Shown piece by piece: positions 3,085 through 57,995 of a stretch of 64,000 bases of DNA. Made by a program: the position numbers and the translations under genes. The stretch comes from Balaenoptera acutorostrata (taxonomy: Eukaryota > Chordata > Mammalia > Artiodactyla > Balaenopteridae). The notes beneath the pieces are model-generated. The model saw nothing but the letters and a program-made list of their open reading frames with translations. It made no database searches and was not told the DNA's origin. The stretch is taken from contig NC_080078.1 of NCBI RefSeq assembly GCF_949987535.1, forward strand, positions 51,982,207 to 52,046,206, given 5' to 3'. How positions within the stretch are numbered: the stretch's first letter is position 1; every line of letters starts with the position of its first letter.

Positions 3085-3126
3085 CTCTTCAACCAGTTGT
3101 AGCATACGACGGGTGCTTTCCAGTGA
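3085..3126 (-). CDS. SNAP25: SNAP25 exon 3 (codons 25-38)
   Basis: A 42-nt exon on the minus strand encodes SLESTRRMLQLVEE, the exact continuation of SNAP25 after ...QLADE. It is bounded by an acceptor with a T-rich tract ending ATCTTAG (AG at 3128-3127) and a strong donor GAG|GTAAGC (GT at 3084-3083). Both junctions are phase 0. The residues carry the heptad hydrophobic positions of the first SNARE helix (L, M, L, V). The exon is too short to show up as an open reading frame; a longer frame overlapping it reads a different, meaningless phase. The next expected segment (beginning SKDAGIRTL) was not found to the left, so exon 4 lies outside the window. Confidence 0.96.
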
Positions 3127-5186
<2,060 letters not shown>

Positions 5187-5930: not shown

Positions 5931-6414
5931 TAGAAGCAAAAGACAGAAAATCTTTCGTCTCTTTCAGTTGTTATCAGAGGTTGCCAAGAGGGCTTATGTG
6001 GGTGTGCATAGGAATTTTTCCAAAGAAGGATGGGCCCTTGGTCCTGAAATGTGACCTGTGCATTTTTCTGGCTGCTCTCTTGAAATCCCGTTTGGTGCAA
6101 ATTACAGATAACCAGACTAGGCTCCCTCCAGAGCCAATCAGCCCCTTTCTTTCCCTACCCACCTCCTCCATTCTGGCCACCAGAATATGTACTCATGATA
6201 TGATGTAGAGTTTTAAATGCTTTGCGTTTTACTTAAACACAAGTCTCCATTTTAGAAATAGGGATCTAGGAAACAGAATTTGGAAGGAATTTATACCAAC
6301 TCATTCCTAAACCTTGAGATGAGCAGAAACAAAATTCCTATATTCCTTTGAGTGACTAGGATCTGCCCCCCAGGATAAAATGGTGGACCAGAAATGCTGA
6401 GTAGATTGTGGGTC

Positions 6415-55304: not shown

Positions 55305-55594
55305 TTTTTGGCTGTGTTGGGTCCTCGGTTCGTGCGAGGGCTTTCTCCAGTTGCGGCAAGCGGGGGCCACTCTTCATCGCGGTGCGGGGACCGCTCTTCA
55401 TCGCGGTGCGCGGGCCCCTCTCCATCGCGGCCCCTCCCGTCGCGGGGCACAGGCTCCAGACGCGCAGGCTCAGCAATTGTGGCTCACGGGCCCAGCCGCT
55501 CCGCGGCATGTGGGATCCTCCCAGACCAGGGCTCGAACCCGTGTGCCCTACATTGGCAGGCAGATTCTCAACCACTGCGCCACCAGGGAAGCCC
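55238..55594 (-). mobile_element. CHR-2-type SINE with an internal duplication
   Basis: A reverse-complement copy from a T22 run and (ATTT)n to CCACCAGGGAAGCCC. The flanks ACATGCTCTT and ACATACTCTT (one mismatch) are the probable target duplication. The 'ctcttcatcgcggtgcg' segment occurs twice (about 55370-55386 and 55393-55409) instead of once. High CpG retention suggests youth. Confidence 0.9.
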
Positions 55595-55599
55595 TACAT

Positions 55600-56870
55600 A
55601 CTCTTGAATAATAATTTTACATCCATATCCAGCAGCAGATCAGTATATACTTATATGGAACCACATGGCTATCCGTAAAAAAACACTAGGAAATAAATAG
55701 CTGGGAATGAAAGTGCCTTCTCTATGTGGACACGGCACTGGAGTACCTCTAATATATAAATGATTGGAGTTAATGACTAACTAAACCCAATCCAAGATCT
55801 TATTTTAAGGCTTTTCTGGGAATCATGATAGCATTTCTTTAATGCGTTGTATAAACATTCTTACATATGACGCTATTACTCTTATTTAACAACTACTCAA
55901 ATAGCACAATTTTTGTTCCTGGTCATTTTATGTTGATTTTATCTATATCAAACAGCTGGAAATATCCCTGTGATAATTTTTGTTCACTCACAGGCTCCAA
56001 ACGTCAGAGTAGAAAATGGTTAAAGTACTTATTACTGCCTCAGCAAAATCCCGCAATGCTGTAATGGAAATTGCAGTAGATCTTTAGGTCAGAGTCCAGT
56101 TTCAGTCTAACACCATGGGTCCTTTCATCTGCATCACGCTGAAGGACACAGTTAGATTCCCCTGAGGAAAGCCAGTCTTAATGTTGTCAAAATCAGAAAC
56201 TATCCTGAGATAACCAATGTCCATAGGAAATACTTCTCCTCACTCTGAAACTATGGCCAAAGAGGTTAAATCTATACCCTGTAAGACCTGTAATATTTCT
56301 TAGAGATGTATTTTTATGGGCGTGTGCTTGTGTCAATGCCTAATTACAAGGATGGGGAAGAGGAAGAAGGATTCATTATTAAAGTTGATTCTGCTTAGTT
56401 CAACTACCCCTACATTTTTTATCAAATAGAAACATGTAGAAAGATATGTCGCTCCTATAAACAGATTGTGTTGGCATCTTCATATATACCTCATTCATGA
56501 CCACCCAGGATCTGTAGACAGATCTATTCTGTGTTAAAAAAAAAAAAAAAACAAACCCAGAAATAAACAAAACCCTTGATTTCTGACTGGAGGATAAATG
56601 CAGAGTTTTAAAAATGTGTTTGTTTTTTACCTAAAAAGGGGGGTGGAGGAGAGAGGGCAACATAGAAAATTTCCACAAGTAGACTTTTTTCTTTTTTTTT
56701 TAGACTATGCAGGAGCTAAGGATGGGAGCTGGTAATTGTTTCCAAAGGAGTCCTATAGGCAGGATTTTTTTTTTTTCCTTTGTTTTTTTCTTTTAACCTA
56801 CTACACCTGCTCTATTAGAGGTCTCCGTGAGACCTAAGTCTCAGAGAAGCAATTTGGCCTGCAGCCCTGG
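55600..56870. other. Intronic stretch left of the CpG-rich patch
   Basis: AT-rich, with A- and T-runs at 56534-56551 and 56686-56790. No element identified. Confidence 0.4.
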
Positions 56871-56926
56871 AACATCTAGACGCGGCCAGGCATCTCTGCC
56901 GCAGGTAGGTGCGCCGGGGCGGCCGG

Positions 56927-56947
56927 ACCACTATCCGCGGTGCTGAA
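56927..56947 (-). promoter_or_regulatory. RE1/NRSE-like site, copy B (weaker right half)
   Basis: The minus strand reads TTCAGCACCGCGGATAG followed by TGGT. The left half-site TTCAGCACC is perfect. The right half is degraded (GGATAG for GGACAG), giving about 16 of 21 matches. It has the same orientation as copy A, 51 bp further into the intron. Confidence 0.6.
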
Positions 56948-56977
56948 AAGTCGCGGGCTCCAGTCCAGTCCCTTGGT

Positions 56978-56998
56978 ATTGCTGTCCAGGGTGCTGAC
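56978..56998 (-). promoter_or_regulatory. RE1/NRSE silencer site (REST binding), copy A
   Basis: The minus strand contains TCAGCACCCTGGACAGC. Both RE1 half-sites are intact (TCAGCACC and GGACAGC) with the canonical two-base spacer. Only the last bases of the 21-mer and its first base deviate from the consensus. REST/NRSF binds such sites to silence neuronal genes outside neurons, and SNAP25 is an established REST target. It lies about 0.72 kb inside intron 1. Confidence 0.85.
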
Positions 56999-57324
56999 CT
57001 CTGGCCGCCGCAGTCCGGAGGCGAGCCCGAGCCCCCGCCCCCGCCAGCCTTGCGCAGAGCCCTCCCACCCAGCACTACCCGCCCGCCTCCCGCCAGCCTG
57101 CAGTTGACGTGGAGCAGGCGGCATAAATCAAGTCCTTGGGGCACGGAGGCTGCTGTGGCGGCTGCAGCTCAGCTTGCCCGGGGCGGGAACTCCCCCTTCT
57201 TTCGCCTCCCCAGCGCCCACACCCTGCCTTCTCCCTAATTCTTCCCTAGATAATAGCGCCCTAACGACAAGTCATAATAATCGGGTCAGAACCACAGGGT
57301 TTGTTTGTCTTGATCTACAGAAAC

Positions 57325-57713: not shown

Positions 57714-57861
57714 CTTGCCTTCTCCAGAGGGTGGTGTTCGCCCGGTCCCTGCAGGTTCCAAGTGTGGAGGAGCCGCCGAACAGGGAGGGAAGGAAAGACA
57801 GCGCCTGACCTCCTCGAGGTTTCGTCTTCAATGCAACGTGAGCTCTGCCCTCATCAAAGAT
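57714..57861 (-). other. SNAP25: SNAP25 exon 1 (non-coding 5' leader), start approximate
   Basis: This minus-strand GC-rich segment ends in a consensus donor, GCAAG|GTAAGG, with GT at 57713-57712. It sits just downstream of a TATA-like box and a CRE, and it is the only promoter-like place upstream of exon 2. Joined to exon 2 it gives a leader of about 210 nt with no long open frame, and its sequence agrees with my recollection of mammalian SNAP25 5' leaders. The 3' boundary is fairly sure. The start near 57861 is inferred from the TATA spacing, and other start sites are likely. A short upstream ORF lies at 57828-57854. Confidence 0.8.
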
Positions 57862-57873
57862 GGCCGTCCCTTT

Positions 57874-57881
57874 TGACGTCA
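57874..57881. promoter_or_regulatory. Consensus cAMP response element (CRE)
   Basis: The perfect 8-bp palindrome TGACGTCA is the consensus CREB/ATF site. It lies between the TATA-like box and the predicted start, about 13-20 bp upstream of it. CREs this close to a start site are typically functional and methylation-sensitive. It suggests activity-dependent input to SNAP25. Confidence 0.75.
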
Positions 57882-57886
57882 GCAGC

Positions 57887-57894
57887 TTTTAATA
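57887..57894 (-). promoter_or_regulatory. TATA-like box
   Basis: TATTAAAA on the minus strand lies 26-33 bp before the predicted start near 57861, the normal spacing for a TATA element. It deviates from TATAAAA, so a moderately focused start is expected. Confidence 0.55.
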
Positions 57895-57995
57895 GCCATC
57901 TCCCGGAGAGGCGGGGAGGAAGTGTGTTAAGGGGAGGGCGGAGGGAGGATGGGGGCGGGCGGTGGGAGGGGAGGAGCCGCGAGGTGCCGAGCGCT

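Follow-up and report, generated by a model that had tools for sequence, protein, structure and literature searches.

A tandem pair of RE1/NRSE sites in the first intron of SNAP25 in Balaenoptera acutorostrata: a probable REST silencer with an apparent counterpart already described in mouse

The window, by which we mean the whole analyzed stretch of 64,000 nucleotides from contig NC_080078.1 of Balaenoptera acutorostrata, carries on its minus strand a gene which, by homology of its translated exons, is SNAP25 (Table 1). A tblastn search with a SNAP25 sequence as the query recovered residues 1-24 at 5122-5051 (E = 4e-10) and residues 25-38 at 3126-3085 (E = 0.004), each with 100% identity, and the translation of exon 2 alone matches the SNAP-25 chains in PDB with a best E-value of 7e-9. 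The predicted exon 1, which we take to resemble the SNAP25 5' UTR, is placed by its splice donor and a TATA-like box; given that exon 2 begins at 5186, intron 1 would thus span about 52.5 kb. The adjoining CRE is the sole copy of this octamer in the window; as a single 8-mer, however, it also turns up in 12 of 100 shuffled windows. At 55500-55600, we noticed a tRNA-derived SINE-like tail ending in ccaccagggaagccc, presumably of the type found in cetaceans and ruminants, as would befit a cetartiodactyl.

Table 1. Features of the SNAP25 locus, in positions of the 64,000-nucleotide window
Feature	Position	Strand	Remarks
RE1/NRSE copy A, GTCAGCACCCTGGACAGCAAT	56978..56998	-	Perfect 16-bp core, 2-bp spacer, non-consensus outer bases
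RE1/NRSE copy B, TTCAGCACCGCGGATAGTGGT	56927..56947	-	Left half perfect; right core mismatched once (position 15, T for C); position 18 is T
CpG-rich patch of intron 1, holding both sites	56880..57300	.	66% GC, CpG observed/expected 0.73
SNAP25 exon 1 (5' UTR), predicted	57714..57860	-	Donor AAG/GTAAGG sets the end at 57714; 5' end approximate, from the TATA-like box
Perfect palindromic CRE, TGACGTCA	57874..57881	.	Predicted SNAP25 core promoter; adjoins the TATA-like box
TATA-like box in CTATTAAAAGC	57885-57895		Basis for the predicted start of exon 1
SNAP25 exon 2 with start codon	5051..5186	-	Codes for 24 N-terminal residues
SNAP25 exon 3, SLESTRRMLQLVEE	3085..3126	-	tblastn homology

Within intron 1 lie two matches to the RE1/NRSE, here termed copies A and B, both on the minus strand, i.e., the sense strand of SNAP25. 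As measured from the predicted exon 1 donor (57713), copy A is found 715-735 bp and copy B 766-786 bp into the intron, which would put them at about +0.87 and +0.92 kb from the predicted start site; if this start site is assumed to lie between 57850 and 57870, the center of copy A falls at +862 to +882. Hence, both RE1s are in the first intron and less than 1 kb from the SNAP25 start, with the start site and exon 1 themselves being predictions. The starts of the two copies are offset by 51 bp, or about 4.9 helical turns, leaving a gap of 30 bp between the 21-mers and of 35 bp between the cores. The surrounding patch has a CpG observed/expected ratio well above the 0.24 of the window as a whole. 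An earlier note, made from this DNA alone, had described two same-strand RE1s some 50 bp apart on the SNAP25 sense strand within intron 1, in a CpG-rich patch 0.7-0.8 kb past exon 1; the letters, the coordinates, the base composition and the homology of exons 2 and 3 all bear out this description, with the end of exon 1 being predicted. The same holds for its account of the individual sites, namely of a copy A with intact half-sites at canonical spacing (no core mismatch and a 2-bp spacer, its outer bases being non-consensus) and a copy B with a perfect left half and a decayed right half (one core mismatch, with the right half taken alone scoring at background).

Both copies share with the canonical 21-bp RE1, as printed in PMC11860772 (NNCAGCACCNNGGACAGNNNC) and PMC3529185 (TTCAGCACCACGGACAGCGCC), the presence of two half-sites in the same order separated by a 2-bp spacer, and the core of copy A is perfect. 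Relative to the site given in PMC3529185, copy A departs at positions 1, 10, 11 and 19-21, of which 10 and 11 are the spacer, and copy B at positions 10, 15, 18, 20 and 21. The core pattern TCAGCACCnnGGACAG, when allowed at most one mismatch, is matched twice in the 64 kb, by copies A (no mismatches) and B (one mismatch), both with the 2-bp spacer, against 0.03 expected, and none of 100 shuffles attains two such matches. Once three mismatches are tolerated, there are six matches in the window against 4.8 expected, with 29 of 100 shuffles reaching six; this proximity to expectation means that only the low-mismatch pair of A and B stands out. Likewise, the window holds two copies of the left half TTCAGCACC by itself where 0.83 would be expected, and 21 of 100 shuffles have at least as many. 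Partial or looser matches being thus close to chance, they carry no meaning in this window.

The half-site RE1s with 8-9 bp spacers considered in PMC9903721 are likewise REST sites built of two half-sites; however, an exact scan of the window for CAGCACC-N(2-12)-GGACAG, with no mismatches allowed, returned copy A as its sole match, at the canonical 2-bp spacing, and no instance with atypical spacing. A perfect RE1 right half-site, GACAGCGCC, is seen at 57797-57805 (+), within the predicted exon 1 and opposite to the gene strand; 0.07 such half-sites are expected per window and 6 of 100 shuffles contain one. We rejected it as part of an RE1, there being no exact left half nearby, and lone half-sites are described in PMC9903721 as lacking significant repression.

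A scan with an RE1 position weight matrix, which the earlier note had proposed, placed the two copies as the top two 21-mers of the window. The 21-position matrix draws on 15 published sites, one of them the canonical site of PMC3529185 and the other 14 the distinct entries of Table 1 of PMC1794552, whose 16 rows include two miRNA pairs that share a site. PMC1794552 names experimental support for miR-124a, miR-9 and miR-132, which covers at most six of these 14 sites, with at least eight being predictions only. Across 127,960 21-mers on both strands, copy B ranks first with 17.7 bits and copy A second with 16.3 bits, followed by a match of 12.8 bits at 6028-6048; the last is about the mean best score of 100 shuffled windows (12.6 bits), and was accordingly dismissed as background rather than a third RE1. 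The highest score seen in these shuffled windows, 19.4 bits, exceeds those of both copies, and on average 0.07 and 0.03 21-mers per shuffled window reach the scores of A and B, respectively. Leave-one-out scores of the 15 published sites run from 8.5 to 33.8 bits; both copies fall within this range but at its low end, with A above three and B above four of the 15.

These numbers bear on the possibility that the second match is a chance product of GC-rich sequence or a local duplication of copy A. The patch is indeed rich in GC, and the background frequency of loose matches and the ordinary frequency of the left half speak for such an origin; however, the pairing itself is scarcely matched by shuffling, whether of the whole window, as noted above for two near-perfect cores, or of the local GC-rich 451 bp, where 0.38% of 5,000 shuffles reach the score of A, 0.20% that of B and just 0.02% hold two sites at least as good as B. 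Furthermore, when the 30-bp flanks of the two copies are compared, only 8/30 and 7/30 bases are identical, about the chance level, so that no duplication is visible and a local duplication of one RE1 was rejected. We accordingly regard an origin of the second match by either route as highly improbable.

The earlier note had further cast the two as a strong copy A and a weak copy B, and this ranking does not hold up as such. When scored over the core (positions 2-9 and 12-17), copy A attains 25.8 of 25.8 bits against 19.8 for copy B, and is ahead in 2000 of 2000 bootstraps. Over all 21 positions, however, copy B is slightly higher, with A ahead in only 485 of the 2000; copy A trails here because it has G at position 1 (consensus T) and AAT at positions 19-21 (consensus GCC), outer bases that make it not fully canonical. 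The right halves, of ten positions each, are not strong in either copy, with A at 5.1 and B at 1.4 of 17.5 bits, and 285 and 1,252 of the 127,960 windows, respectively, score as well or better. Thus, the order of strength depends on the score used, and a matrix of 15 sites is too small to settle it.

The published record on this gene is directly pertinent. In mouse, Snap25 was reported in 2008 to bear tandem canonical RE1s within 1 kb, to be occupied by REST and to show one of the strongest inductions by dominant-negative REST in both ESC and NSC (PMC2573930). A 2016 study reports REST ChIP at a first-intron RE1 of Snap25 located at +867 bp from the TSS; brains of Rest gene-trap mutants had a roughly four-fold weaker ChIP signal at this site and about twice as much Snap25 mRNA (PMC4728133). 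In addition, SNAP25 protein is raised in REST-knockout HEK-293 cells (PMC12202048), and PMC1794552 mentions a SNAP25 NRSE that has been validated by experiment and departs from the consensus. The claim of the earlier note that SNAP25 is a REST target is supported by the mouse reports of both binding and derepression. PMC4069008 cites others for REST at Snap25, and the portions of PMC2728526, PMC8639147, PMC2900305, PMC4069008 and PMC12627181 that we drew on contain nothing on the SNAP25 pair. Across the searched literature, no paper was seen to print the 15-letter core of either copy, on either strand; the only core to appear, CAGCACCGCGGACAG, is a different one that was searched alongside them.

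The pair described here appears to be the counterpart of the mouse tandem RE1s: the gene is the same, there are two RE1s less than 1 kb from the start, and the bound first-intron site at +867 agrees with the position of copy A. This correspondence is drawn between different species from the gene, the intron, the distance and the word 'tandem', rather than from an alignment. Hence, the reading of the locus as a REST silencer pair appears to be correct but already known from mouse. The present sequence gives the gene, the motifs and the way in which they are arranged, while binding and derepression come from mouse; we infer that both would also take place in B. acutorostrata, with both copies contributing.

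We therefore consider the pair very probably a SNAP25 intron-1 silencer, which would be bound by REST in non-neuronal and progenitor cells and released upon neuronal differentiation. Briefly, its action might be pictured as follows. DNA-bound REST recruits corepressors of the CoREST/HDAC type. In non-neuronal and progenitor cells, REST would occupy the pair and the SNAP25 promoter would be kept off; the loss of REST during neuronal differentiation would then release this promoter. Two REST molecules would have room to bind side by side, the 21-mers being separated by 30 bp of free DNA, and the offset of nearly five helical turns would turn both toward much the same side of the helix. The simplest role for the second site would be a higher total occupancy.

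Whether both copies do any work is a question to which the matrix scores are again relevant. It is possible, though in our view somewhat doubtful, that one copy is functional and the other passive or decaying, so that there would be no cooperative or graded pair; such a situation would be a variant of the silencer rather than exclusive of it. Either copy could be cast as the passive partner: copy B has the core mismatch and the poorer right half, whereas copy A, for all its perfect core, has poor outer bases. Moreover, in a zebrafish reporter assay with three NRSE constructs, of which one carried a single copy, brain-specific expression was seen in at least 10% of the embryos with every construct (PMC3531662). 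Against this, the two copies hold the top ranks in the window, the full matrix does not put B below A, and the mouse motifs are reported as both tandem and canonical (PMC2573930).

A stronger form of joint action can be conceived from the complementary defects of the two sites, with copy A combining a perfect core with poor outer bases and copy B a perfect left half with a mismatched right half: neither alone may pass the threshold for silencing, and two REST molecules side by side might do so. For the cooperative or graded occupancy that the earlier note put forward as a possibility, the closest parallel is the synthetic silencer REx2, which likewise has two NRSE cores that differ from each other, lie on the same strand and are separated by less than 40 bp; in REx2, both cores are perfect, the spacer is 27 bp and the element lies upstream of the promoter, whereas the SNAP25 pair is natural and intronic, with 35 bp between the cores and one core mismatch (PMC3531662). 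Two different NRSEs 27 bp apart do suppress reporter expression in non-neuronal cells, with the statistics given being against no NRSE and not against a single copy (PMC3531662). PMC9903721 describes a score change point (20.86, with JASPAR MA0138.2 scored by FIMO) under which canonical motifs made no contribution to repression, and found that among non-canonical half-site arrangements 8- and 9-bp spacers alone silenced. We hold such a mutual dependence to be rather unlikely; if true, it would make the pair a cooperative, dose-sensitive switch for SNAP25.

The location of the pair also raises the prospect that it additionally controls an antisense or alternative promoter in intron 1, with the CpG-rich patch itself acting as the promoter. 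The patch is centered some 0.7-0.8 kb from the predicted main promoter and a gene named SNAP25-AS1 occurs in the literature; the patch also contains a TATA-like CATAAATC at 57122-57129 (+), antisense to SNAP25, but this is a lone 8-mer and a weak signal. A bacterial-type promoter scan of the patch was uninformative, the gene being mammalian. We deem this added role improbable.

Taken as a probable SNAP25 intron-1 silencer, the pair represents a REST silencer of the textbook type in a core synaptic gene rather than a new class of element. The presence of a recognizable pair in a second mammal would fit with selection keeping the paired arrangement, and the complementary defects of the two copies make it a convenient place to test whether neighboring RE1s act together.
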